Source: Opitutia bacterium (GTDB lineage Bacteria > Verrucomicrobiota > Verrucomicrobiia > Opitutales > Opitutaceae). From it: DNA of 64,000 nucleotides. Where the stretch lies: assembly GCA_016187925.1 (NCBI GenBank), contig JACPIS010000009.1, positions 1 to 64,000 on the forward strand, given 5' to 3'. Below the pieces are notes generated by a model. It saw only the letters and a list, made by a program, of their open reading frames with translations, was not told the origin of the DNA and did not search any database. Below, one piece after another: positions 1-26,092 of this stretch (positions are counted from its first letter, which is position 1; every line of letters begins with the position of its first letter). A program made the translations under genes and the position numbers.

Positions 1-3000
1 GCCGCCGTCAGCCCGGTCTGCTGCGTGATCGTGTAGTTGGTGTTGGCGGTGCTCAGCCCGGTGACCGTCACCGGCTTCGTCGGGCCGACGTCCTTGTCGG
101 CAAACGCGCCCGCGGCCGTGCCGTCGAGCGTCACCGTGTCTCCCGTGTAGGGCTTGCCGTCCGAAGTCGTGCCGCTCCCCGCCGTCTCGCTCGCCTGGAG
201 CACGGCCGTGCCGCCGAGTGTGGCTGTCGTCGTGCCGTCATAAACCTTGGCACCCGCCGTCAGGCCCGACACCGTCAGCGCCTTCGCCGTGATGGCCGCC
301 GTCAGCCCGGTGGGCTGCGTGAGGGTGTAATTATCCTTCTTTGCGCCGCTGAGCGTCAGCCCGGTGACCGTCACGAGCCTGCTCGGCCCGGTGTTCTTGC
401 TGTCCGTCTGGGCGGAGTAGGCGCTCGCATCGAGCGTCACCGCATCGGAGCCTTCGATCGTGGCCAGGACGGCGCTCGTGGTGTTGAGCGTGACGCTGGT
501 CGTGCCGTCATAGGTGCGGTTGACAGCCGTGACCCCGCTCAAGGTGAGAGCCTTCTTGTTGACCGTGAAGCTGCGTGCGACCGCCGCCGCGGGCAGATAA
601 CTGGCGTTGCCGCCTTGCATCGCCGTCACCGTCACGGTGCCGGCGCCGGTGATCGTGACCGTGGTGCCCGAAAGCGTGGCCGGTCCGGTGATCGTGTAGG
701 CAACCCCGAGACCCGAGGAGGCCGAGGCACTCACCGAGAAAGATGCCGCGCCGTAGGTGACATCACCCAAGGCTGCGAAAGTGATCGTCTGCGCCGTCTT
801 GCTTTCGGCGGAGTATTGAGAGTGGACCTGATTCTGCACCGCCGTGGGGGTCGCCGCGGGGTTGGCGGAGCCAGCGGCGTCCTTGAACACCTGCCACAGC
901 ATCAGGCCGTCGTGCGGGTTGGCGTTGACGGTGTTGGCCTGCACGGTCGCCGCAAAGCGTTCCACCGAATACGCTCCAGGGTTGGCCGTCCCATATTGGT
1001 CCGCCGTGACCAGCGTGCCGGCCGCACCGGCGGAAGCGTTGGTGATCGCGAGCACGGCCTTGTTTGGCGCCCCCGCGGCTTCATCGGGTATCTCGACGCC
1101 GATGGAGACCGGGGTCGTCGCCGGGAGGAGCTTGCGATAATCCGAGTAAGCCCGCACCGGGTCGAAATGCTGGTAGCCCGCATCGTAAGACATGATGTTC
1201 ACCACATCGAGCAGGCTCATGGTCGGGCGGCCGACCAGCGCCGGTTGATCGGCGCTCGCCGTCACGGTGGCGCGGAAGACCCGGCGCTCCCGGCCGGCCG
1301 AGCCGCCAAAATAGGAAGTCTGGCCCGCATAGTCCGGATCGGTGGTCGTGTCCGCCGTGAAATCCGCGCCGGTGGACCACGCCGCTATGGCGAGGAGGTG
1401 CGGCGTGCCGGTGGCGGTCGTCGCCGCGTCCACGGCCTCGCGCATCGCCTGGATCGCCTTCTTGTAGCGCGTCTCGTTAGCGGTGTCCGCGGTCGTCGCG
1501 CTGGCGATCTCGTAATCGACGTCCAGGCCGTCCAATCCGAGGTCCACCACGAAGTTCTTCAGCGCCGTCTTCGTCGGAGCGCTGGCCATGGTCGTCCCCG
1601 CTTCGTTGGCGAGCGTATCCCAGTTGTTATAGGTGGCGCCGCCGACGGCCAGCAGCACCTTCTTGCCCAGCGCCTTCATCACCCGGACGGCTTCCTTGAT
1701 GTCCTTGGGCGTGGATTGGGCTCCGAAATTCAGGCCGGTGCCGGTCCAATTGTTCGCCGCCAGACCATTCCAGGTAAAATCCGGCTGGGCGAACGAGATC
1801 ACCACATGGGTGTAGTCGGCCGGCAGGCCGGCCAGGTTGCTCTGGCTGAAAATTTCCGCATCGGTCTTCGGCGAGGCGTAGGTGCCGGGATCGTTGAACG
1901 CCGAGAAAAGGTTGGCGCTCCACGTCGGATAATAGCCCGTGAAATACCGGGCGCCCTGGCTGGCGCCGGTGATATCGGCCGTCAGGCCGGTGGGTTGTGT
2001 GAGCGCGTAGTTCCCGGCCTCCGCACCGTCCAACCCGAGGTTGGTCACCGTCACCGCCTTGGCCGTGCCCACATTCGCGGTATCAAACTGGGCGGTATAG
2101 CCGCTGGTTTTCACCGTCACGGTGTCGCCAGCATACAGCGCCGGGCTGAAACTCGGGGTCGCGACGTTCAGTGTGGCGGTGGTCGTGCCGTCGTAGGTCT
2201 TGCTCAGCGCCACTACCCCCGGGGCCGTCAGGGCCTTCGCCGTGATGCTCGCCGTCAGGCCGGCCTGTTGGGTGAACGTGTAATTGGGCGCATCGTCGCC
2301 CGTGATCGTGTTGCCCGTCACCGTCACCGCCTTGCCTGCCTCGACTTGCTTGTTGGCGAACGTGCCTACGGCCGTGCCGCCCAAGGTCACCAGATCGCCC
2401 ACCACCAGTCCGTTCAGCGCGGCTGTGCCACTGAGGGTCGCCGTCGTCGTGCCGTCATACACCTTGTTGCTCGCCGTCAGCCCCGATACCGTCAGCGCCT
2501 TAGCCGTGATGCTCGCCGTCAGGCCGGCCTGCTGGGTGAACGTGTAGTTGGGCGCATCGTCGCCCGTGATCGTGTTGCCCGTGATCGTCACGGCCTTGCC
2601 CGCCTCGACTTGCTTGTTGGCGAACGTGCCGACGGCTGTGCCGCCCAAGGTCACCAGATCGCCCACCACCAGTCCGCTCAGCGCGGCGGTGCCGCTGAGG
2701 GTCGCCGTCGTCGTGCCGTCATACACCTTGTTGCTCGCCGTCAGCCCCGACACCGTCAGGGCCTTCGCCGTGATGTCGGCCGTGGCCGTCAGCGTGGCGC
2801 CGGAAAGGGTGTAGTTGGCGACGTCGGCGCCCGCGATGCTGAGCCCGGAGACCAGGATGGACTTGCCGGTCCCCGCGTTCTTGTTGGCAAAGGCGCCGCT
2901 GGCCGTGCCGCTGACCGAGACCGACTCGGAGCCGACCACGTTGGCCACGGTGCCGGTGCCAGTGATCGTGACGGAGGTGGTGCCATCGTAGGTCTTGGAG

Positions 3001-6000
3001 GTCGCGGTGATGCCGGAGATCGTCACCACCCGCTGAGTGATGCCGCCGGTGAGGGTCGCACCGGTGAGCGTGTAGTTGGCCGCGGCGGAGCCGCCGAGCG
3101 AGAGGCCGCTCAGGGTGACGGTCTTGCCGGTGCCGACTGCGGCGTTGGCATAGGAGCCCGCGGCCGTCCCGGAGAGCGTGACATTCGCGGCATCGCCCGG
3201 GAGCACACCGGAAAGGGCCGGCGTGCCGGTGAGGGTCGCGGTCGTTCCCCCGTCGTATTGCTTGGTCGCGGTCAGGCCGGTGACGGTGAGCGTGATGGGA
3301 CTGATCGTGATGGTGAGCGGCACGGCAGATCCGGTGCCGTAGGCATTGGTCGCCGTGATATTGACCGTGCTTGCCCCCGCCGCAGTGGGGGTGCCGGAGA
3401 TCACACCGGTGGTGGGGTTGAAAGTGAGGCCGGCCGGCAGTGTGCCCGTGAGAGCGAAACTCGTGGGATCGTTGACCGCGGTTACCGTGAAGCTGAATGA
3501 CGATCCGTAGGGGCCGGTTGCCGTCGTGGCGCTGGTGATCACAGGATACGGTGGCGTGCCCAGCCGGATGACGCCGTTGGAGAGATCAGCTATATAGAGA
3601 CGCCCGCCTGCGTCGACCACGATGCCGCGCGGTCCATCAAACTGCGCCACAGTGCCTTCGCCCTCGCGGTAGCCGGTGCCGCCGCTGCCTCCCAGCGTGG
3701 TTACCCCGGTAGAGGGCGATATCTTTCGGATACGTGCTCCATTTGCGACCGTTACGTAGAGATTGCCTGCGCTATCCCGCGCGAGCCCCTGAGGGGCACT
3801 AAACTGTGCCAGCGCTGGATCTGCATTGTCCGCGTAGCCGCTCACGCCGGTTCCAGCATACGTCGTGACTGTTCCGCCGGAGATTTTCCGGATCACATGA
3901 TTGCTTGAATCGACCACGTAAAGCGCACCGCTTCCATCAGACACCAAATCCACTGGGTTATCAAAACGGGCTGATCCAACTGGTCCGTTAACCAAGCCGG
4001 GGGTGCCTGCCGTGCCGGCCACAGTGCTGACCGCCCCAGTGGACATCGTGATCTGACGGATCACATGGTTGCTAAAATCCGCCACATACAGCACGTCCTT
4101 TGATGGGCTGAAAGCCAGACCGGCGGGTGAGCTGAATCTCGCGGTGGTCGGCGCGGTAGAATCCAAATATCCGGAGGTCCCGTCGCCGGCAAAGGTCGTG
4201 GTGCCACCGCTCGGGGTGACCTTGCGAATCCGGTGATTGTTCTGGTCTGCGACATAGACGTTACCCGCTGCATCCACCGCCACATCCAAAGGTGTATTAA
4301 ACCATCCGCCTTGGCCCGTGCCCTCGTTGAAGCCGGCCCAACCGAAATTGCCGGCGAGAAGCGTCACCGCGCCACTCGGCGTTATCTTCCAGATCATATG
4401 GGAGCCTCGATCAGCAACGTAGAGATTGCCGCTGGCATCCCAATCCATGCCATTTGGCCCACTGAAAGAGGGTGTCGGCTTGGCAAGGCCGTCAACCTCG
4501 CCGGAGCCTGCAACGCCATTACCCCGCAGCCAACCGGCTTCGGTGCTGACCACGCCCGCAGGCGTGACCCGGCGCACCGCATAGTTATAGAGATCCGCGA
4601 CAATGAGATCACCGCTTGTCGGATCCGTGGCGACATCGTAGGGAGCCCAAAAGCTAGCGTTCGTGCCACTACCGTCGACGAGCCCGGTGCCGGCGGAGCC
4701 CGCAAGCGAGGTGACCGAACCACTTGGCGTCACCTTTCGGATCTTGTTATTTTGAGTGTCTGCGACGTAGAGATTGCCCGCCGCGTCAATCGCCAAGCCC
4801 CACGGCCCGTTGAAGCGAGCATTGATACCCTCGCCATCAGTGTTGCCGGAGTTGCCGGAGTTGTCGCCGGCAAAGGTGGAGACAAGCAGGGTGCCCGCTT
4901 CGATCTTCCGAATACGATGCATGCCCGCTTCGGAAATGTAGAGACTGCCGCTGGCATCCGTTACGACATCGGTAGGCGTCCAAAATCGGGCAACGGTTGC
5001 CAGTTGGCCATCGCCATAATTCCCCTGGTTGCCATCACCAGCATAGGTGCTCACCGCATAATTGCTGCCCGCGGCAAGGCTGATTTTCCGGATGCGAACG
5101 TTTGCGCTGTCGATGACATAGAGGGCGTTGGCGGTTGCATCGTAACAGAGCCTCCCAGGGCTTCCGAATCTCGCACTTAGGCCGTCGCTGGAGTCGACAT
5201 AACCGTTCCCACCATCACCAGCGATCGTGGTGACAAGCCCCGCCGGGGTGATCCTACGTATCCGACGATTCCCCACCTCACTCACATAAAGGTTACCAGC
5301 CGAGTCGAACGCGAGGCCCTGAATGTTGTTGAATCTCGCAAACCGCAGGCCATTGGCATCAGCGTATCCACTGATTGGGCTGCCAGCATAGGTCGTGACC
5401 ATTCCGTTGGCGATCTTACGAATAGAGTGCCCCCCATCCGCCGCAAAGTAGATGGCGCCGGATGCGTCAACCGCTGCGTTCCTTATCGTCGGAAGTTTCG
5501 CCCAGGAGCGCGCGCCGTTAGTATTGCCGTATCTATCAGTTGCGCCGGCAAACGTGGATGTCCAGTCGCCGCTGAAAGTCACTTCGCGTATCCTGGCACT
5601 ATAGTCGGAAACATAGAGGGTGCCGCGAGAGTTCACGACAATGCCACGTGGATAATTGAAGCGGGCGGTCGGAAGATCGCCATCTGCGGTTCCTTGTTGT
5701 CCACTAGTGCCGGCAATGGCAAAATAGGATCCATTCGTGTTGAATCTCTGGATTGTGTGATCGGTATAGCTCGGAGCGTAAATAACGTCGCCCGCCCCGA
5801 CTGCGAAATCTAATATACCCACCGCGCCCGGATGAGAAATATATGTGCTGACGGTCGGCACCGTGCCCGGGTTCACGATTTTCCGTATCCGTTTGTTTTG
5901 ATAATCGGCCACTAATAGGTCGCCATTGCTCGCGAAGTGGATGCCCACGGGGCTGGAGAAACGAGCATCGATCCCGGCGCCTTCGGCATATCCGGGAGTC

Positions 6001-6689
6001 GCTGTAGGAGAACCTGCCACCAGCGTGACCATGAGGGTTCCCTGCTCGATCTTTCGTATCCTGTTCCCCTTTTGCTCGCTGACATAGATATCGCCGTTCG
6101 CTGCGACCGCAATGCCACTGGGCTCACTAAAGCGCGCGGCTGTGCCGGCCACGTTGTCCACAAAGCCATCACCACCATCGCCCGCGATCGTGGTGACGAC
6201 GCCCGCCGGCGTGACCTTGCGGACCCGGTGGTTATACAACTCCGTTACATAGAGGCTCCCGTCGCTGGCCAGCGCCAGACCGTAAGGATAATTGAAGCTC
6301 GCAGCCAGACCGGTGCCATCTGCATACCCCTGCGCGCCGCTCCCGGCGAGGGTGGTGACATAACCGTCGGGCGATATTTTCCGAATCTGGTTATTGACGG
6401 GATCGGCGACGTAGAGGTTGCCACTGGCATCCTCCACGAGGCTATGGAGGTTAGGGCCAAAGCGAGCCTGGACCCCCTGGCCGTTTGTGGTTCCCAAGGC
6501 ATCGGAATTTCCGCCGGCAAACGTCGTGAAGCGATAATCGCCAACCGCCGCCAATCCGGCGCTGGCGCCGACCAGCAGCACCACCGCCAGCAGCGCGACG
6601 CCGCGGGCCGCCATCAGGCGCGATGCGAAGCCGTGCCCGACCAACGAGCAAGGAGAAGGGACCAACCGGGAGAATAAGCAGGAGAACAT
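1..6689 (-). CDS. Giant NHL-repeat / YDG-repeat / GH18 chitinase-like surface protein (3' end outside window)
   Basis: A single frame is open from the ATG at 6689 to position 1, at least 2229 codons; the C-terminus lies outside the window. Residues about 26-45 form a hydrophobic signal or anchor segment. Residues about 50-1045 hold 18 NHL motifs of the type NLYVADxxNxxIRK, spaced about 55 residues, enough for three six-bladed propellers. Then come an Ig-like domain (about 1050-1130), YDG-type Ig repeats (about 1130-1568), a GH18 domain (about 1573-1960) with DGLDVDYE, catalytic Glu near residue 1727, another Ig-like domain and more YDG repeats. I checked that the frame is continuous at several points. 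GH18 enzymes hydrolyse chitin or related beta-1,4-GlcNAc polymers; NHL and YDG domains usually mediate binding or extension at the cell surface. A regulatory palindrome lies 48 nt upstream, and the T2SS operon ends just beyond it, so this is a candidate secretion substrate (inference). Activity is unproven. Confidence 0.9.
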   Translation of the reverse strand, partial: MFSCLFSRLVPSPCSLVGHGFASRLMAARGVALLAVVLLVGASAGLAAVGDYRFTTFAGGNSDALGTTNGQGVQARFGPNLHSLVEDASGNLYVADPVNNQIRKISPDGYVTTLAGSGAQGYADGTGLAASFNYPYGLALASDGSLYVTELYNHRVRKVTPAGVVTTIAGDGGDGFVDNVAGTAARFSEPSGIAVAANGDIYVSEQKGNRIRKIEQGTLMVTLVAGSPTATPGYAEGAGIDARFSSPVGIHFASNGDLLVADYQNKRIRKIVNPGTVPTVSTYISHPGAVGILDFAVGAGDVIYAPSYTDHTIQRFNTNGSYFAIAGTSGQQGTADGDLPTARFNYPRGIVVNSRGTLYVSDYSARIREVTFSGDWTSTFAGATDRYGNTNGARSWAKLPTIRNAAVDASGAIYFAADGGHSIRKIANGMVTTYAGSPISGYADANGLRFARFNNIQGLAFDSAGNLYVSEVGNRRIRRITPAGLVTTIAGDGGNGYVDSSDGLSARFGSPGRLCYDATANALYVIDSANVRIRKISLAAGSNYAVSTYAGDGNQGNYGDGQLATVARFWTPTDVVTDASGSLYISEAGMHRIRKIEAGTLLVSTFAGDNSGNSGNTDGEGINARFNGPWGLAIDAAGNLYVADTQNNKIRKVTPSGSVTSLAGSAGTGLVDGSGTNASFWAPYDVATDPTSGDLIVADLYNYAVRRVTPAGVVSTEAGWLRGNGVAGSGEVDGLAKPTPSFSGPNGMDWDASGNLYVADRGSHMIWKITPSGAVTLLAGNFGWAGFNEGTGQGGWFNTPLDVAVDAAGNVYVADQNNHRIRKVTPSGGTTTFAGDGTSGYLDSTAPTTARFSSPAGLAFSPSKDVLYVADFSNHVIRQITMSTGAVSTVAGTAGTPGLVNGPVGSARFDNPVDLVSDGSGALYVVDSSNHVIRKISGGTVTTYAGTGVSGYADNADPALAQFSAPQGLARDSAGNLYVTVANGARIRKISPSTGVTTLGGSGGTGYREGEGTVAQFDGPRGIVVDAGGRLYIADLSNGVIRLGTPPYPVITSATTATGPYGSSFSFTVTAVNDPTSFALTGTLPAGLTFNPTTGVISGTPTAAGASTVNITATNAYGTGSAVPLTITISPITLTVTGLTATKQYDGGTTATLTGTPALSGVLPGDAANVTLSGTAAGSYANAAVGTGKTVTLSGLSLGGSAAANYTLTGATLTGGITQRVVTISGITATSKTYDGTTSVTITGTGTVANVVGSESVSVSGTASGAFANKNAGTGKSILVSGLSIAGADVANYTLSGATLTATADITAKALTVSGLTASNKVYDGTTTATLSGTAALSGLVVGDLVTLGGTAVGTFANKQVEAGKAVTITGNTITGDDAPNYTFTQQAGLTASITAKALTVSGLTASNKVYDGTTTATLSGTAALNGLVVGDLVTLGGTAVGTFANKQVEAGKAVTVTGNTITGDDAPNYTFTQQAGLTASITAKALTAPGVVALSKTYDGTTTATLNVATPSFSPALYAGDTVTVKTSGYTAQFDTANVGTAKAVTVTNLGLDGAEAGNYALTQPTGLTADITGASQGARYFTGYYPTWSANLFSAFNDPGTYASPKTDAEIFSQSNLAGLPADYTHVVISFAQPDFTWNGLAANNWTGTGLNFGAQSTPKDIKEAVRVMKALGKKVLLAVGGATYNNWDTLANEAGTTMASAPTKTALKNFVVDLGLDGLDVDYEIASATTADTANETRYKKAIQAMREAVDAATTATGTPHLLAIAAWSTGADFTADTTTDPDYAGQTSYFGGSAGRERRVFRATVTASADQPALVGRPTMSLLDVVNIMSYDAGYQHFDPVRAYSDYRKLLPATTPVSIGVEIPDEAAGAPNKAVLAITNASAGAAGTLVTADQYGTANPGAYSVERFAATVQANTVNANPHDGLMLWQVFKDAAGSANPAATPTAVQNQVHSQYSAESKTAQTITFAALGDVTYGAASFSVSASASSGLGVAYTITGPATLSGTTVTITGAGTVTVTAMQGGNASYLPAAAVARSFTVNKKALTLSGVTAVNRTYDGTTSVTLNTTSAVLATIEGSDAVTLDASAYSAQTDSKNTGPSRLVTVTGLTLSGAKKDNYTLTQPTGLTAAITAKALTVSGLTAGAKVYDGTTTATLGGTAVLQASETAGSGTTSDGKPYTGDTVTLDGTAAGAFADKDVGPTKPVTVTGLSTANTNYTITQQTGLTA
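2233..2760 (-). repeat. Tandem near-identical 264-bp YDG repeat pair
   Basis: Two adjacent copies (about 2233-2496 and 2497-2760) are almost identical at DNA level and each encodes 88 residues of a YDG-type Ig repeat. More diverged copies flank them on both sides of the GH18 domain. The period is a multiple of three, so gain or loss of a copy keeps the frame. The high identity points to recent duplication or homogenisation. Confidence 0.85.
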
Positions 6690-6737
6690 GGTGAGTGGGT
6701 ACGTCACGAGAGTAGCAATTTATTTACGCAATAGGGA

Positions 6738-6972: not shown

Positions 6973-7416
6973 TCACCAATTCCCGATATCGTCGTCGCTC
7001 TCGGCCACCTTGTCCGGGCCTTTGGAAAAAAGATCGTAACCGCCGGGATTTTTCGTGCCGGGATACCGGTAGACGTAGGGTTCGCCCCACGGGTCGACGG
7101 GCAACCGGCCGCCGGGGGTCTCGATATACGGACCACGCCAGCGCCCGGCACCCGAGCCACTGTTGGGAGCGGAGACGAGGGAGGCCAGGCCTTCGGCCGT
7201 GGAGGGATATCCTCCCATGTCCATGCGATAGCGCATCAGCGGAGTCTTGAGCGAATCCTGCACATAAAGGCGGGCCATCGCGGCCTGGCTCTGCCCGAAA
7301 ATATTGTCCATGTTGCTCACCACGAGTCCCGCAAGCAGACCGACCAGCGCGACCACGATGAGAATTTCAAGCAGGGTGAAGGCCCGAAGATTGGAACGAG
7401 CCGAGGCGTGTTTCAT
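6973..7416 (-). CDS. gspG: Type II secretion major pseudopilin GspG
   Basis: Major pseudopilin that builds the periplasmic piston of the type II secretion system. Starting at the Met at 7416 gives a 12-residue basic leader, cleavage before FTLLEIL (Ala at -1 instead of the usual Gly, Glu at +5) and a 20-residue hydrophobic helix. An upstream Met at 7437 is possible. The C-terminal half carries the family hallmarks GGYPSTAEGLASL, WRGPYI and DPWGEPYVYRYPG, ending in an acidic stretch typical of the calcium-binding GspG tail. It is last in the operon, about 110 nt after gspM, instead of the usual place first among the pseudopilins. Confidence 0.92.
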   Translation of the reverse strand: MKHASARSNLRAFTLLEILIVVALVGLLAGLVVSNMDNIFGQSQAAMARLYVQDSLKTPLMRYRMDMGGYPSTAEGLASLVSAPNSGSGAGRWRGPYIETPGGRLPVDPWGEPYVYRYPGTKNPGGYDLFSKGPDKVAESDDDIGNW

Positions 7417-7529
7417 TTTGATGGAGCAGTTGAGCATGAGCTTAAGGGAAACTGGTCGCAGCTTCCGGCACGGGGAGCGGCAAACAATCGCCGGAAACTA
7501 CGGACGGGGGTCATGGGCCGGCTGAGCGC

Positions 7530-8120
7530 CTAAGGGTTTGTTTCGTGCGGCGCAGGAGTGACGTCCGGAGTCGGCCGCGCCGGCGCGGATACCGGCCCGG
7601 AATCAGGATCGACTATCTGGATGGAATAGATCCGGAACGTCGCATTCAGCGTTCCGGGAGCGCCCGGATCGGAGGACAGCAGGCACTGCTCGATGCCCAA
7701 ATAGGGGGCGCGCCTGACCAGCCGGTCGTAAAATTCGATCAACCGCCCGAAATTGGTCCGACGAATTGTGATCTGGTGAAAGTGCAGGGCAAAAGAGCCG
7801 GTGATCTCCGTGCGCGGGGTCCCGAGTTCGACCGTCAGTCCCCGGGCCATGTCATTCAGCTCCGCGAAACTCTGGCCGGAATCGAGGGTCCGGACCGGAT
7901 CCAGAATCTTGGCGGCCTCCTTGACGCGAGAGAGTATCTCGTCGCGCTGCGCGAGCAGCAAACTCTGCCGCGCTTGCTCGCCAAGACTGAGCCGCCATGC
8001 GCGGACCGTGAAGGCGGTGCGCTTGGCGAGCACCGATGCACCCCACGCCAGACCAGCCATCGCCACGGCCAGAAGCAGCAGCTGTTCACGAAACGAGCGT
8101 TGTCGAAAGTACGTTTTCAT
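7530..8120 (-). CDS. gspM: GspM-like inner-membrane assembly protein
   Basis: 196 residues: a short cytoplasmic N-terminus, one transmembrane helix at about 14-32, then a periplasmic part with a predicted coiled coil (about 40-70) and a ferredoxin-like C-terminal region, ending in a Pro-rich tail. Sequence similarity to GspM is weak, as usual for the family; the call rests on topology, length and position directly after the GspL-like gene with a 4-nt ATGA overlap. GspM pairs with GspL to form the inner-membrane platform that links the cytoplasmic ATPase to the pseudopilus. Confidence 0.65.
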   Translation of the reverse strand: MKTYFRQRSFREQLLLLAVAMAGLAWGASVLAKRTAFTVRAWRLSLGEQARQSLLLAQRDEILSRVKEAAKILDPVRTLDSGQSFAELNDMARGLTVELGTPRTEITGSFALHFHQITIRRTNFGRLIEFYDRLVRRAPYLGIEQCLLSSDPGAPGTLNATFRIYSIQIVDPDSGPVSAPARPTPDVTPAPHETNP

Positions 8121-9238
8121 GAGTCGACCTGGGGCGAGAACCAGCCGGGTTTGAAAGTCACATCCAGGGAGAAGGTTGTCAGGCCGTCCTTGGTGCGCGG
8201 GTCGTGCAATTCCGCCCGCTCGATCTCCGGGACCTGGCGCAACGCGGACTCCAAGGTCCGCAGATCCCCGGCATTGGCCGTTTGCGCGGCGATCGCCATG
8301 CGGAACGGGCCATCGGTGCTGACGCGGAGAAATCCGACCGAGTCAGGCCGGCGGTGGTTGACGACCGCCAGCATTTCCAACGGACGCGCCTGATCGCGCC
8401 CGACCTTGTCCAGCCGCCGGGCGAGCTCCATCGCGGACTCGATGAGCCGGATTTCCGCCCTGTGGATGGCGACCGCCTCGCGTCGCTGCCGAAGCAACCG
8501 GTGAGAAACCGCCAACGTCGCCCCCCAGACGAGGCAGGCGGCGAGCCCAGCCAGCGCACCGACAAAAACGCGCCAACGCAGATTTTGCCGCCGGACAGCC
8601 AGTCGGTGGCTCTGCAAGACCGCACGATCTCGCACATCCGCGGTCAAGAGGCGGGCGGTGTCGAGGGCGACCCTCTGCCCTTCCGGGCCGACGAGGAACA
8701 AGGCGCGCTCGCCGGCGCGGAGAATCGAGATGGCGCCGCTCGCCTGCTGCCGCGCCAGGAGGGGTGTTTCCGTGCCGGAAACCTGACGCTCGCCCGAGCA
8801 CTCCGAAAGCACCTGCCCGTCGAAGCAACGCGAGCAAAATTCGGCCGGCAGTTCCGACGCCTCATCCCAGGTTACAGTTTCGATGTTGTCCGCCTGGCGG
8901 CGCACAACGACCGCCGGGTCTCCGGGTCGATTCCTGGATGCGCACCAAAAAACCGCTTCGGGGAGCACAAAGGCGGCGGCGTTCCACCCGGCCACCTGCT
9001 CAGCGGGAAAAGACTTGCGATGTGCCGCGAATACGAGCGCGTAGCGCCGGCCGGCATCGAGATAGTAACCGTGATACAATTGCTCCAATGGAAAGGGAGC
9101 CTGCGCCTCAAGAGCCAGTTCCACCTGCCCGGACGGATCGGCCGATGGAGCCAGTTTGATCCGGCGAACGAAGAAATGCCGGTTCGGCAGCAGAAAAACG
9201 GAAGACTGGGCGGCTAAGGCATGCGAGTCAGGATCCAT
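8117..9238 (-). CDS. gspL: GspL-like inner-membrane assembly protein
   Basis: 373 residues. A cytoplasmic actin-like region of about 220 residues is followed by a single transmembrane helix (about 224-243), an RQRREA-type coiled coil and a periplasmic ferredoxin-like domain. This is the architecture of GspL (or of fused PilM-PilN), which anchors the GspE ATPase to the inner membrane. It overlaps gspK by 11 nt and the GspM-like gene by 4 nt, so it is translationally coupled on both sides. The primary sequence is divergent and the call relies mainly on architecture and the canonical K-L-M order. Confidence 0.7.
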   Translation of the reverse strand: MDPDSHALAAQSSVFLLPNRHFFVRRIKLAPSADPSGQVELALEAQAPFPLEQLYHGYYLDAGRRYALVFAAHRKSFPAEQVAGWNAAAFVLPEAVFWCASRNRPGDPAVVVRRQADNIETVTWDEASELPAEFCSRCFDGQVLSECSGERQVSGTETPLLARQQASGAISILRAGERALFLVGPEGQRVALDTARLLTADVRDRAVLQSHRLAVRRQNLRWRVFVGALAGLAACLVWGATLAVSHRLLRQRREAVAIHRAEIRLIESAMELARRLDKVGRDQARPLEMLAVVNHRRPDSVGFLRVSTDGPFRMAIAAQTANAGDLRTLESALRQVPEIERAELHDPRTKDGLTTFSLDVTFKPGWFSPQVDS

Positions 9239-10280
9239 GGGTATCGCTTTCGGTGATTTCGAGAAAACGGAGGCCGGAGCGGGAGCCCAGCGCGGTCCAA
9301 GGGCGAGGCGAAGCTCGCTGCGGATCGGCTGCTGCGGAATGAACCGGCGACTTAACGGGATCCGCCCCGAGATCGATGACTGCTTCGAGCCGGAATCCCC
9401 GGCTGCCCGACCGGGTGAGGACCGTCACCCGGACACAGTTCGCCTGGGCCCGAAGGCGGAGGGCGGCCGGACTACTGCCGAATACGGAACGGATATCATC
9501 CGCTGTCGTATAAATGGGCCGTGCATCGACCTTCCCCTGCGGCCCCTTGGGCTGCCCCTCGAACGCAGCGTCCGGCACGCTCAGGCCGAGCGAGCGAAAA
9601 ACCATTCCGGAGGCCGTGTTGGCGTTGATCCGGTCGAACTCATACAGGCTGGCCTCCGCGCAGAAGCGCCGCCCCAATTCGTTCCACCGCCCATCCTTGT
9701 CCAGAAGGCACCGACGGGCCGCCGGAAGACAGCGCAACTCATCGAATGTGCGCAGCGGGCGACCCGGCGGATGCGAATAGGCGTCGTCCAACTCGCGATA
9801 GAGCGAGGCATGATCCGCCCTCGTCCAAGTAAGCAAAGCATCGCTCAGCTCGTCGGCGTCCGTCGCCGCCAATCCAAGCACGCCTAAAAAAAGGCGCAAC
9901 GTGGCATCGTCCACCACCGCCAACGGCAGCTTGCCCGTCTCATCCGCCACGACCACATCGACCTTGATGCCCGGTGGGGCGGCATAATCGTAAATCTCAA
10001 GCGGCCGCCCCCACCCTTCTGCCGGAGAATGCAGCCCGGCGTGAAGAGCGGCTTGGTCGGCAAGCGCCGCCTGCGCCCACTCGAGCACAGCGTAGGCCTC
10101 CTCGCGCAGAAAAACACGCTGCGCCGCCTTGGTTTCCGCAGCCAATTCAACCCCAGAGCGCTCAATGAAAGCGGTCAGCAGAAGTGACGCGAGAAATACC
10201 ATCCCCAGCACGAACACGATGACGAAGCCCCGCTGGCTGCGGGGAAACGGTATGCAGCGGAATCGTAGGAAGACAGCCAT
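9228..10280 (-). CDS. gspK: Type II secretion minor pseudopilin GspK
   Basis: 350 residues, the size expected for GspK, the large minor pseudopilin that caps the pseudopilus tip. The leader ends in SQRG, followed by FVIVFVLGMVF; as in known GspK proteins Glu+5 is absent. The body contains the helical insert (DADELSDALLTW), YSHPPGRPLRTFDELRCLP and the DRINANTAS motif, all typical of the T2SSK family. The ATG at 10280 follows the gspJ stop by 2 nt; a TTG at 10286 is an alternative start. Confidence 0.9.
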   Translation of the reverse strand: MAVFLRFRCIPFPRSQRGFVIVFVLGMVFLASLLLTAFIERSGVELAAETKAAQRVFLREEAYAVLEWAQAALADQAALHAGLHSPAEGWGRPLEIYDYAAPPGIKVDVVVADETGKLPLAVVDDATLRLFLGVLGLAATDADELSDALLTWTRADHASLYRELDDAYSHPPGRPLRTFDELRCLPAARRCLLDKDGRWNELGRRFCAEASLYEFDRINANTASGMVFRSLGLSVPDAAFEGQPKGPQGKVDARPIYTTADDIRSVFGSSPAALRLRAQANCVRVTVLTRSGSRGFRLEAVIDLGADPVKSPVHSAAADPQRASPRPWTALGSRSGLRFLEITESDTHGS

Positions 10281-10282
10281 GT

Positions 10283-10936
10283 TCAAAAAGCGGCCCGCCC
10301 GTTCAGCACAAGGGGCAGGGTCACGATGCGCTCCGCCACCAGGTTTTTATGCCGAAACTGCAGGCGGATCTGCTCCGGAGTCTGCCAGACCCCTTGGCCG
10401 ACCCGAAGAGGCGTCCGCTCAAACCGCCAACGATCCGCCTTTTCGTCGAAATATCCAAATTCCAGCCGCGTGGCGAGCGGGCTGACTTCGACCGAATGCA
10501 TTTCGTCCTCCTCCGCCGCTTCCAACTCGGAACGCCAGAAGAGGCTTAAGCCAGCGGCGTCCTCGATCGCAAGGGCACAATGGATATCGGGCGCCGGCGG
10601 AACGCTGCCGGCCATCAACCGATCACGCTCCAGCAGCACAAATCCCAAGGCAGCAAATCGGCCGGCCCCCTTGCCGCGAACCTCGCAGATGAAGAAGGGT
10701 TCAGGCCGGACGACGCCCGCCTTGGGCAGCGAGGCCCGTCGCAAAAGCGACTCCAAGTGGCGCGTCACGGCATTCACATGCTGCACGAACAGCCGCTCCT
10801 CGCTGCCGCGCCCCCAAATTTCCCCCATCGAAAACATGAAGGTGAGAAGCGCGGTCAATAGCAGCCCCATCAGCGTGATCGCGAGCAGGACCTCCATGAG
10901 CGTAAAGCCATCGGTTGACTTGGTGCGGGATTTCAT
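10283..10936 (-). CDS. gspJ: Type II secretion minor pseudopilin GspJ
   Basis: 217 residues from the Met at 10936 (MKSRTKSTDG, cleavage before FTLMEVLLAITLMG with Glu at +5). Upstream Met codons would overlap gspI and add a non-pilin extension, so I prefer this start, 4 nt after the gspI stop. The rest is the beta-rich globular domain of minor pseudopilins. GspJ joins GspI and GspK in the tip complex that initiates pseudopilus assembly. Confidence 0.85.
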   Translation of the reverse strand: MKSRTKSTDGFTLMEVLLAITLMGLLLTALLTFMFSMGEIWGRGSEERLFVQHVNAVTRHLESLLRRASLPKAGVVRPEPFFICEVRGKGAGRFAALGFVLLERDRLMAGSVPPAPDIHCALAIEDAAGLSLFWRSELEAAEEDEMHSVEVSPLATRLEFGYFDEKADRWRFERTPLRVGQGVWQTPEQIRLQFRHKNLVAERIVTLPLVLNGRAAF

Positions 10937-10940
10937 CGCG

Positions 10941-11384
10941 TCAATGGGGCCTTTCCAAGCGCCGCCGGCTTTCATCGCGCAGGCGGTCCCGATCCGCCGG
11001 GTCGGACCATTCCGGCCGGAAGAGCATGAGGCGAATCTCCCAGATCGGCCTCGGAGCCTCGGAGCCTTCCACCCGCACGTGCACCTCATACAGATCCGCC
11101 AAGGCGGCAGGGGCGATGCGCGCCGTCCAGAGAAAGTACCGGTCGTTCGTCAACGCGAGACGCCCGCCCCCGGCAACCTCGGCACGGTCGCGCCGAGATT
11201 GGATCACCGCACGCACCAACTGGATCTCGCCCTCATCCTTCTGCCCGTCGGCCACGCGGTGGTAGTTACCAAGGACGTTTAGGTAAGCCGCGGAGAGAGC
11301 CACGGCGGCGATGGCAAAAACAGCGAGGCCTACCAGGACCTCGAGCAGCGTAAAGCCCACGCCCAATCTCATCCGGCACTTCAT
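10941..11384 (-). CDS. gspI: Type II secretion minor pseudopilin GspI
   Basis: 147 residues starting at MKCRMRLGVG, cleavage before FTLLEVLVGLAVFAI. The ATG at 11384 overlaps the stop of the gspH-like gene as ATGA. Small size, methylation leader and place between gspH and gspJ fit GspI of the tip complex. The C-terminal 25 residues are unusually rich in Arg and Asp. Confidence 0.85.
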   Translation of the reverse strand: MKCRMRLGVGFTLLEVLVGLAVFAIAAVALSAAYLNVLGNYHRVADGQKDEGEIQLVRAVIQSRRDRAEVAGGGRLALTNDRYFLWTARIAPAALADLYEVHVRVEGSEAPRPIWEIRLMLFRPEWSDPADRDRLRDESRRRLERPH

Positions 11385-11932
11385 GGGGAAGGTGCGTCGA
11401 ACACCGGAGCGCAGGTCCAAGGATCGATGCGCAGCAATGCCCGCGCACCGGTATCGGGCGACAACTGAATCTTGAATGCGTCACACGAACCGTCGGGATA
11501 AAATCGCACTGCCTCCAGCCGGCCGGTTTCCGCCAGCTCGCCGCCCAGCAGGATCTTCGCATTTGAGGTCACGGGGAGGAATTCAACGTCCGCGTCCGGC
11601 ACCGGGACCGCGCCCAGGGACCGCTCCGCATCCCCTAAGAACCACCGCAGCGAACGTTCCCGGGCCTCGAAGCGCAGCGAAACCTCGCTGTCCCGCTGCA
11701 AGGCGGCGGCGCGGGCGGAAGAAACTGCCGCCCAGACGCTATCCTCCGGCGCCTTCGCCCGACGTTGGAACATCCCGCCGGCGCCATCGACGAAAAGGAC
11801 CCCGACCAGGGCCATTAACGCGAGCGCGAGCACCAGTTCAAAAAGGGTGAAAGCGGACTCGCGCCGCACTGCCGCACTGCCGCAGGGACGCCGGATTGCC
11901 GAAGCAGGATCGCTGGAGACACGCCGGTCCAT
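11381..11932 (-). CDS. gspH: GspH-like minor pseudopilin
   Basis: 183 residues from MDRRVSS, 2 nt after the stop of the preceding gene. A long basic leader of about 27 residues ends in RESA, followed by FTLFELVLALALMALVG with Glu at +5. The middle contains AAVSSARAAALQRDSEVSLRF, which resembles the GspH/FimT helix-plus-strand element. GspH links the minor tip complex to the GspG body. Family assignment rests on the N-terminal motif and operon position. Confidence 0.8.
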   Translation of the reverse strand: MDRRVSSDPASAIRRPCGSAAVRRESAFTLFELVLALALMALVGVLFVDGAGGMFQRRAKAPEDSVWAAVSSARAAALQRDSEVSLRFEARERSLRWFLGDAERSLGAVPVPDADVEFLPVTSNAKILLGGELAETGRLEAVRFYPDGSCDAFKIQLSPDTGARALLRIDPWTCAPVFDAPSP

Positions 11933-11934
11933 AA

Positions 11935-12504
11935 CTAGGGCTGGCCGGCGGGCGCCTTGGGAGAGGGCTGCACCGCACGCCGCCGATGAAGCGTTTCGAC
12001 CGCCGCTTGCTGCAACTGCCGGGCAGCTTCCACCTGTTGCACAGCGCCATCGCCGACCGCCGTCACGGGACCCACGGCTTCCGGCCGGACCTGCTGGGAC
12101 GGAAGCGTGGAGGCCGCAGTCAACACAGCGCGACTCACCGGTGCCGATCGCAGAGGCAGTGCAAGCTTTTGGCCGCGATATTCGACCAGCAGTTCGCGAC
12201 GGTCTACATCGTAGCCAAGAACGAAAATGCCCTGTCCGGTCTCCTCCTGCAGCCCGATCCAATACGAACGGCCCGAGGCTGACTCGAACAGACTGAAGAT
12301 GCTTTTATCGCCTTCAGACAGCATGCCGCGGAACTGCAACGGCCCGTGAGCGACGCCCGCATCGGGTTGATCGGATTTCCTGACTGGTCCGAAAGGCGAC
12401 CGGTTCACCAAAGAGGAGAGCGACGGCAACGATGCGCCCTCGGCCGGGATGAGAAGGCCGAACAACCCGCATAGAAGCACGACTGCCAGCAAGACTCGCA
12501 TCAT
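11935..12504 (-). CDS. Exported GspC/PilP-like protein of the T2SS operon
   Basis: 189 residues starting at MMRVLLAVVLLCGLFGLL, a signal peptide or membrane anchor; the ATG overlaps the upstream stop as ATGA. Residues about 45-120 contain SPFGPV and LQFRGMLSEGDKSIFSL, followed by a short beta-rich stretch, reminiscent of the HR domain of GspC, which contacts the secretin N0 domain; the C-terminal 60 residues are Ala/Gln-rich and probably helical. Since the operon has no other GspC, this is the best candidate for the inner-membrane to secretin connector, but the similarity is weak. Confidence 0.55.
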   Translation of the reverse strand: MMRVLLAVVLLCGLFGLLIPAEGASLPSLSSLVNRSPFGPVRKSDQPDAGVAHGPLQFRGMLSEGDKSIFSLFESASGRSYWIGLQEETGQGIFVLGYDVDRRELLVEYRGQKLALPLRSAPVSRAVLTAASTLPSQQVRPEAVGPVTAVGDGAVQQVEAARQLQQAAVETLHRRRAVQPSPKAPAGQP

Positions 12505-18030: not shown

Positions 18031-18714
18031 TCAGGAAGCCCCAGCTGGCTTGCGCCGCCACTTGCGATACAGCGCCCAAGTCGACAATGCCGTCCCCCCC
18101 CCCGAAACATGCGCCATTGGCACGGGCCCAACATCCTGAAGATCGGAAGCGAGCAGCGCATTCCCGGTAATTAGCTCGCAGATAATTTTACCAGCGAGCA
18201 GGGTGAGAACAAGAAACCAAAACCACGACGACTCCCGACGACTACCACAAGAAAGCTGCCAGCACGAAAGCAGCACCAGCATCCCGGCGGCAAGTCCCGA
18301 CAAACCACGATAGGCGAGCAGGTCGGGCTGGACAAAATATAGCACCGCAGAGATCAACGGAGCGGAGAAAAAAAGATAGGCGCGAAACAGCCAAGGCTGG
18401 TTCCTCTCCAGCCAGACGCCGGTAGGCAAGAAAAGCAGCAAATTCCAGAAGAGATGGCTTGCGCCGAAGTGCGCGAGATGGTCCGTCCATGCACGCCATA
18501 GTTCCCCTCCCACCAACGCGTCCCGCCGGTATTCAAAAACAATCCCCAACGATGGCCACGCCCCTAGGGCCACCGCTCCAAGAGCTGACATGGCGGTCAG
18601 CCATGGTTGTCCAAATGGTGGACCGAAGTGCGCGGGGCACTTCGCGTGCGGAAACCTGGATCTGGAGCCAACGCGACTTTCAGTCGCCCTGATATCGCCG
18701 TTATCTGTCGCCAT
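18031..18714 (-). CDS. rrtA: Rhombosortase (rhomboid-family intramembrane serine protease)
   Basis: 227 residues, polytopic. It has the features of the rhombosortase branch of rhomboid proteases: GGELWRAWTDHLAHFGASH, then HLFWN in the second membrane region, nucleophile Ser139 in YRGLSGLAAG, a KIICELITG segment, and catalytic His202 in PVPMAHVSGG. Known rhombosortases process proteins carrying a C-terminal GlyGly-CTERM anchor, often exported by type II secretion. No GlyGly-CTERM tail is visible in the complete proteins of this window; the C-terminus of the giant protein is outside it. Two palindromic sites lie 95-160 nt upstream. Confidence 0.8.
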   Translation of the reverse strand: MATDNGDIRATESRVGSRSRFPHAKCPAHFGPPFGQPWLTAMSALGAVALGAWPSLGIVFEYRRDALVGGELWRAWTDHLAHFGASHLFWNLLLFLPTGVWLERNQPWLFRAYLFFSAPLISAVLYFVQPDLLAYRGLSGLAAGMLVLLSCWQLSCGSRRESSWFWFLVLTLLAGKIICELITGNALLASDLQDVGPVPMAHVSGGGTALSTWALYRKWRRKPAGAS

Positions 18715-25126: not shown

Positions 25127-26092
25127 GTGACACCCGCCGCGCTTCAGCTCCTCCCTCAATCCATTCACCATGGAAATCGGCTGACACACAAGTGGCGAAG
25201 GATACGGCTGCAAATTGTCACTTTCTCAGTTTTCACCACCGTCTTGAGCCCTGCGTTTCCGCAGACAACGCTCTATTGGGACTCAAACAAGACGACTGCA
25301 GGCTCTGGTAATTTGGGTGGCTCATGGTCCAGCACTTCCAAAAAGTGGAGCACGGCTCCGGCAGGCAACATTGCCACTCAAGGCTGGATTGGCGATTCGT
25401 CCGCCATCTTCAGCGCTGGCACCGATTCCACGGGAAGCTACACCGTCAATGTCGTCGCCACGCAAACGGTGAAAAATATCACGGTGGAGGAAGGCAACCC
25501 CACCCTTCGCGGCGGATCACTCAACTTTTCCGTTACCACTTCTACGATCGATGTCGCTGCGAACAGTACCCTGACACTCAGCAATTCCCTCGATGCAAAC
25601 GGTAGCATGTCGATTGTTACAGCCGGCAGCTTAACCAAAAGCGGCGAAGGCACATTAGCACTGGCGAAAAATCTCTCTCTGGCCGGTTCATTGAACATCA
25701 GCGGCGGCACACTTTTGCTTTCAGGCACAAATTATTCCTTTGGCACAATGGATGTCACTGGAAACTCAATTATCGATTTCGTTGGCAACACCACGCTGAG
25801 CATCGGCACCTTGGTGCTCGCCCCTGGTGCAACTCTCACGATCCGCGATTGGCTTGACGCGAGTGATGCGTTCTCGGTCACGACTTGGACAGGTGCAACC
25901 ATGGACACAAAGGATGTGGCCCCGATGAACCAAGTGAGTTTTGTCGGCAACATCGGGCCCGGTTCGATATGGGAGAGCTTCGACCATCGAGTACGTCCGG
26001 TTCCCGAACCGTCGCACTATGGTGCAATCTTGGTGGGTACGCTCGGCGGCATCGGGTTATTCTGTCGATTCCTCAATATCCGCAGGCAATAA
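25127..26092 (+). CDS. PEP-CTERM protein with autotransporter-associated beta-strand repeats
   Basis: 321 residues from a GTG start. A signal peptide (about 20-45, ending PAFPQT) leads into WDSNKTTAGSGNLGGSW and Gly/Thr/Ser-rich beta-helix-like repeats (ITVEEGNPTLRGGSL, LTKSGEGTLALAKN, LNISGGTLLLSG), typical of the autotransporter-associated repeat family in Verrucomicrobiota. The C-terminus is a PEP-CTERM sorting signal: VPEPSHYGA, a hydrophobic stretch, then a basic RRQ end. Such signals are recognised by exosortase; no exosortase gene is in this window. Predicted fate: sorting to the envelope or exopolysaccharide. Confidence 0.88.
   Translation: MTPAALQLLPQSIHHGNRLTHKWRRIRLQIVTFSVFTTVLSPAFPQTTLYWDSNKTTAGSGNLGGSWSSTSKKWSTAPAGNIATQGWIGDSSAIFSAGTDSTGSYTVNVVATQTVKNITVEEGNPTLRGGSLNFSVTTSTIDVAANSTLTLSNSLDANGSMSIVTAGSLTKSGEGTLALAKNLSLAGSLNISGGTLLLSGTNYSFGTMDVTGNSIIDFVGNTTLSIGTLVLAPGATLTIRDWLDASDAFSVTTWTGATMDTKDVAPMNQVSFVGNIGPGSIWESFDHRVRPVPEPSHYGAILVGTLGGIGLFCRFLNIRRQ

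Follow-up and report, generated by a model that had tools for sequence, protein, structure and literature searches.

What is a giant protein that combines propellers, repeats and a chitinase domain doing beside a type II secretion system (T2SS), and how does it end? The question is raised by a window of 64,000 nucleotides, the whole stretch of DNA analysed here, which is contig C27 from its first base (G000:C27:1-64000) in an assembly of 48 contigs and 4.0 Mb. An earlier note, made from the sequence alone, had described a single frame of more than 2200 codons open at the window edge, and such a frame is indeed present: giant 1 occupies positions 3 to 6707 of the minus strand, with 2235 codons counted from a GTG, and is cut by the contig end. 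It lacks an end in the window because C27 begins at window base 1, at an assembly break. The leftward extension that the note had proposed for finding the C-terminus reached a stop on contig C46 by way of an overlap of 89 bases (positions 1 to 89, identical to the end of C46), the remainder of the frame comprising 1339 codons (C46:78084-74065, minus strand). No stop interrupts giant 1 either in the window or before the end of these 1339 codons. With positions 1 to 3000 as query against the same genome, the C46 end was matched, and in the hit table C46 alone matched the start of C27. Judged from these matches, the joining of C27 and C46 is likely. A further copy of the 89-mer lies 294 bases away within C46, so that the junction is a repeat, YDG copies may be missing and the exact middle of giant 1 is unsure. 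The length obtained with a single overlap, 3546 codons including the stop or 3545 amino acids from the GTG, is a lower bound. The true start of giant 1 is likely the ATG at 6614, and positions 6546 to 6614 (minus strand) read as a probable Sec signal peptide (MAARGVALLAVVLLVGASAGLAA, assigned by eye). Opposite giant 1 lies an antisense open frame of 1165 codons (window 3-3500, plus strand), which probably reflects no more than the high G+C and the repeats.

The description of giant 1 as a modular protein held as well, with NHL, YDG and GH18 all found by Pfam in its window part (YDG at E 3e-114, NHL at 1.8e-76 and Glyco_hydro_18 at 1.2e-11, the last over residues 1622-1977). A profile built from giant 1's own repeats gives the 18 NHL units that had been counted before (residues 74-1068; positions 3504 to 6488, minus strand). 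The notion of three six-bladed propellers is drawn from this repeat number, and AlphaFold2 run without alignment on the 1049-residue NHL stretch gave a model too low in confidence to use (mean pLDDT 34.8, pTM 0.23). YDG repeats flank the GH18 domain, with five before it (positions 1989 to 3296) and two after it (positions 15 to 560, both on the minus strand) in the window; the C46 portion holds a further two YDG, one MBG_2 and six MBG_3 stretches. NHL giants as such are ordinary in the family Opitutaceae, the NHL part being matched in 79 of 150 family genomes at E <= 1e-30. Among the NHL proteins of solved structure related to this part are teneurins, SOQ1 and TRIM71. Giant 1 has the repeats in common with teneurin-type and other NHL propellers and differs from them in having 18 in one run. 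At third codon positions, G+C amounts to 0.65 for the NHL part (3504-6488) versus 0.85-0.88 for the YDG and GH18 parts and what follows them (3-3500), and this step within one frame suggests a fusion of two histories.

The GH18 domain, as aligned and modelled, covers positions 780 to 1952 (minus strand). Its DGLDVDYE signature (positions 1509 to 1532, minus strand; residues 1726-1733), reported earlier as complete, is intact, and its D, D and E do not vary across an alignment of 35 rows. In the same alignment the M.YD (MxY-D) stretch is invariant and the last Trp is kept in at least 90% of rows. The proposed structure prediction gave a GH18 fold (pTM 0.87), and the active-site residues are intact in the sequence. 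Foldseek and VIA-align both return GH18 proteins for the model, the best fold match being chitinase 1ll6 (Z 21.6, rmsd 3.0 over 267 residues). Membership in the GH18 family is thus indicated by a Pfam score over the cut-off, by a GH18-type TIM barrel and by the DxxDxDxE motif with its catalytic Glu. The list of fold matches also contains YKL-39, and inactive chitinase-like proteins share the fold. Support for the chitinase fold and motif is good, and the predicted domain is very probably a working GH18 hydrolase.

The domain has few close relatives. Across 387 genomes of the phylum we found seven GH18 matches at E <= 1e-3, strong only in the genome itself and in G360, so that the close form is present in one other genome among those searched. 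Vertical inheritance within the genus was considered and set aside: when 38 relatives were searched for the GH18 domain and its flanks, two other genomes matched, both of them solely in the end of the query and outside the catalytic motif. A scan of named genomes gave 34 GH18 loci aligning over the barrel, most of them from Burkholderiales (Roseateles, Pelomonas, Rhizobacter, Inhella), the others from three Spartobacteria, one member of the Armatimonadetes, gill symbionts and a related gammaproteobacterium. In this subfamily of 35 rows identity to the window copy is 41-53%, and in the tree the window copy sits on its own long branch beside a group of Spartobacteria and Armatimonadetes and a group of Burkholderiales. 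The GH18 of a metagenome-assembled genome labelled Methylotenera is identical to the Roseateles puraquae copy (L067, L069), so that this bin may be contaminated. All eight GH18 relatives that we scanned carry a chitin- or cellulose-type carbohydrate-binding module (CBM), one of them weakly: CBM2 in three and CBM5/12 in five (one below the cut-off), with an LPMO in one of the eight as well. No CBM was matched by Pfam in giant 1.

Giant 1 had been placed next to a T2SS operon; in fact it lies inside one, between gspG in the window and gspD-E-F on C46. Upstream of giant 1, all on the minus strand, are gspG (6973-7437; TIGR01710, 112.8 bits), gspM (7530-8120) and gspL (8117-9238), gspK (9228-10286, with a match below its model's cut-off), the gspJ-like (10283-11089) and gspI-like (10941-11420) pseudopilins, with prepilin motifs over the cut-off and letters inferred, and a gspH-like pseudopilin (11381-12262, matches below cut-offs). 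Of these window genes gspG alone exceeds the cut-off of its own model, and gspM and gspL, which have homologues in other T2SS loci and no family match, are named from order and size. On C46, giant 1 is followed by giant 2, by gspD 109 nt beyond giant 2, and by gspE and gspF, the last named from order and homology. The secretin and T2SSE domains of gspD and gspE are over the Pfam cut-offs, and the GspD model scores 301 bits on gspD, below its cut-off of 351. The cluster contains gspD, E and G with pseudopilins, several letters being assigned from order, and the T2SS genes from C27 and from C46 are complementary. As gspH-I-J-K-L-M-G, the giants and gspD-E-F follow in order on one strand, both giants lie within the T2SS operon. 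The palindrome that giant 1 and the T2SS genes were said to share was not confirmed: such inverted repeats as lie close to the starts of the gene and of the operon are short or imperfect. In GspE and GspD trees the focal copies have long branches and positions that lack strong support, from which we conclude nothing beyond divergence. A further set of T2SS genes, in the convergent order DEF><MLKJIHG, is present at C27:115.7-126.6 kb (L050).

How giant 1 ends turned out differently from what had been expected. In place of a GlyGly-CTERM, PEP-CTERM or T9-like end, C46 supplies a paired EF-hand, dockerin-like tail, here called T, and the frame closes with it and without any Gly-rich, transmembrane and Arg end. 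The last 112 residues contain a pair of ~52-residue units, each an EF-hand-like loop with a helix, followed by GTSRTG..Y....GT.DGFAP. Pfam gives EF-hand_6 at 1.8e-4 for the focal tail, with EF-hand models the only matches and all below their cut-offs. Of 28 aligned family tails, 24 match EF-hand_5 and 12 match Dockerin_1 at E <= 1. From its sequence T appears dockerin-like with a longer spacing, and it lies within 20 residues of the frame end in 30 of 33 frames. A variant GlyGly or PEP tail was also considered and gave zero model matches.

Giant 2 starts 58 nt past the giant 1 stop on C46 and has 1435 amino acids, with a domain D at residues 29-155, one YDG repeat, and MBG, He_PIG, NHL and Ig domains. 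Its C-terminus, SGGGSFEGGFVLLMASMFLVRWLAGRRRR, is tripartite by eye (Gly-rich, hydrophobic, Arg) and is unmatched by the GlyGly-CTERM model TIGR03501 even at E 10; the model has two other matches over its cut-off elsewhere in the genome. A rhombosortase-family intramembrane protease is encoded at positions 18031 to 18714 (minus strand; Rhomboid), where TIGR03902 matches 18082-18537 with 101 bits against a cut-off of 84. Three places in the genome, one of them in the window, exceed that cut-off, versus none in 14 control genomes. The window copy has GLSG and HVSGGG stretches (by eye), which we take to suggest an active protease. A rhombosortase homologue lies on the same stretch as gspD in six of ten genus loci versus none of six outside the genus. 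In relatives, all six matrixin-type metalloproteases scanned beside gspD carry Ig or NHL domains (L040, L042, L043, L044, L045, L047), and four of them have a Gly-rich, hydrophobic and basic end by eye. Within the window, a 321-aa frame (25127-26092, plus strand) ends in a PEP-CTERM-like tail, VPEPSHYGAILVGTLGGIGLFCRFLNIRRQ.

T and D occur together across genomes. Of 200 family genomes, 22 contain T and 24 contain D; every genome with T also has D, which stands alone in two (G439, G450). In the phylum at E <= 1e-6, T was matched in 5 of 387 genomes, four of them in the family and one weakly, and among viral contigs 44 pattern matches yielded none that was confirmed. Among the 125 tails in the matches listed, with pieces merged, D lies directly before T on the same strand in 81, within 700 nt downstream in 27 (versus two with D there on the other strand), and in neither position in 31; of the 44 tails that lack a preceding D, 13 are closely followed by one, which is the arrangement of the focal pair. 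These counts score at most ~22 candidates per genome, contigs end near many of the matches, and tails within one genome are not independent. They supersede, with 27/125 versus 2/125, an earlier neighbour count (14 of 31 tail frames versus 4 of 164 in the control) that was biased upwards because it drew on 20 stretches picked after viewing the hit tables, plus two others. Three D proteins of about 560-600 codons (L153, L154, L174) end in PEP-CTERM-like tails by eye, which fits a surface-anchored partner. Cohesin was tried as an identity for D and rejected on sequence grounds, the cohesin model being unmatched in 50 of 50 D members at E <= 1, and there was no cohesin among the PDB-chain matches of D at E <= 10. 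The four tailed giants that we scanned combine Ig domains with RCC1 or NHL propellers, and none has a hydrolase; the chitinase is therefore an unusual cargo, and the tailed propeller giant a theme of the family.

Taken together, our tentative preference is that giant 1 is a chitinase exported by the T2SS and displayed at the cell surface, perhaps docked on giant 2. Giant 1 would pass the outer membrane through the adjoining T2SS, an export route that we regard as probable, and its GH18 domain would cut chitin or a related GlcNAc polymer, with the YDG/MBG repeats serving as spacers. The rhombosortase would trim giant 2 and anchor it via its Gly-rich, hydrophobic and Arg end, and the EF-hand tail would keep the chitinase at the surface, possibly docked on the N-terminal D of giant 2. 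The GH18 hydrolase, the T2SS context, the paired EF-hand tail and the conserved association of T and D are the steps for which the sequence speaks. Retention at the surface by the tail is conceivable, with considerable doubt, and docking of giant 1 on D in trans is rather doubtful. In its widest form the hypothesis would be that Verrucomicrobiota of the Opitutaceae type have a docking system of their own, in which T of propeller-bearing giants attaches to a D that is often encoded next door and surface-anchored by a sorting tail, the pair here being built into the T2SS operon; we consider this unlikely. Such a system would be unrelated to cohesin-dockerin by sequence models. With the pair in a T2SS operon that also holds the chitinase, export machine, anchored scaffold and enzyme would form one transcription unit.

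The strongest point against docking is that D mostly stands before T in the same protein, so that D and T may be one C-terminal module. Giant 1 might then be a chitinase simply released by the T2SS, its tail a calcium-stabilised end or an export signal, and D plus T a module acting in cis without docking between proteins. The position of T close to the frame end is what an export or folding signal would show, and D's lack of a cohesin match also agrees with this explanation. However, the focal T has no D before it while the neighbouring giant 2 begins with one, and the 13 tails with D just downstream repeat that arrangement; release with a cis module seems to us less than probable, if a serious contender. 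It might also be possible that giant 1 is mainly an adhesin, with propellers and stalk binding surfaces and GH18 serving as a chitin-binding head or acting on another GlcNAc polymer. The hydrolase-free tailed relatives and the wide spread of NHL giants in the family would fit, whereas the intact catalytic D, D and E and a subfamily that travels with CBM5/12, CBM2 and LPMO argue for catalysis, and make an adhesin improbable. Very improbable is an artefact made by repeats, with C27 and C46 not being neighbours or giant 1 being a recent chimera without a function of its own. Such an artefact could draw on the overlap recurring inside C46 and on the step in third-position G+C, but C46 alone matches the contig start in the genome, strand and reading frame are kept across the join, the frame is open throughout, and the T2SS genes of one side complement those of the other.

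The GH18, NHL, YDG, T2SS and rhombosortase families are each known by themselves. The novelty lies, as far as the available parts of the literature go, in the GH18 fusion with its domain combination, its placement inside a T2SS operon and the T/D pair; we found no literature on an Opitutaceae chitinase with type II secretion, and nothing on the T/D pair in the accessible portions of work on Verrucomicrobia dockerin/cohesin and related topics. The focal GH18 shares the DxxDxDxE motif and the barrel over most of the domain (Z ~21) with fungal chitinase B/CTS1 and bacterial ChiL (1ll6, 6kst, 6igy), at about 20% identity and within a separate group of 35 rows. ChiW of Paenibacillus sp. FPU-7, which is in the list of fold matches, is described in the available part of its report as a chitinase of several modules on the cell surface, GH18 and Ig-like domains among them, from a Gram-positive host and with two GH18 and CBM54; unlike in giant 1, NHL, YDG and an EF-hand tail are not named in that part (PMC5132251). 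The likeness to GlyGly-CTERM/rhombosortase/T2SS surface proteins, as far as the accessible text of the sources goes, is a rhombosortase in the genome and near the T2SS (PMC3237569, PMC13393428). The tripartite end of giant 2 adds to it, whereas TIGR03501 is unmatched there and giant 1 has no such end. Opitutus terrae is listed in the available portions with one GlyGly-CTERM gene next to rhombosortase (PMC3237569 / PMC13393428), and in the available part of Haft and Varghese evidence for rhombosortase marking a T2SS subclass was not found (PMC3237569). The rhombosortase near gspD in most of the genus loci offers a place to look for such a T2SS link. With the cohesin-dockerin pair of cellulosomes, as described in the accessible part of the source, T appears to share C-terminal paired EF-hand units on large modular proteins (PMC11557425). 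A partner domain, D, is present in the same genomes, yet it is unmatched by the cohesin model and often lies directly before T. Classical dockerin repeats are shorter than the ~52-residue units of T. At minimum, giant 1 is a chitinase architecture worth testing; if T and D do dock, they would offer a second means, apart from cellulosomes, of assembling enzymes on the surface of a Gram-negative cell, and one T2SS would share its operon with an anchored cargo of its own.
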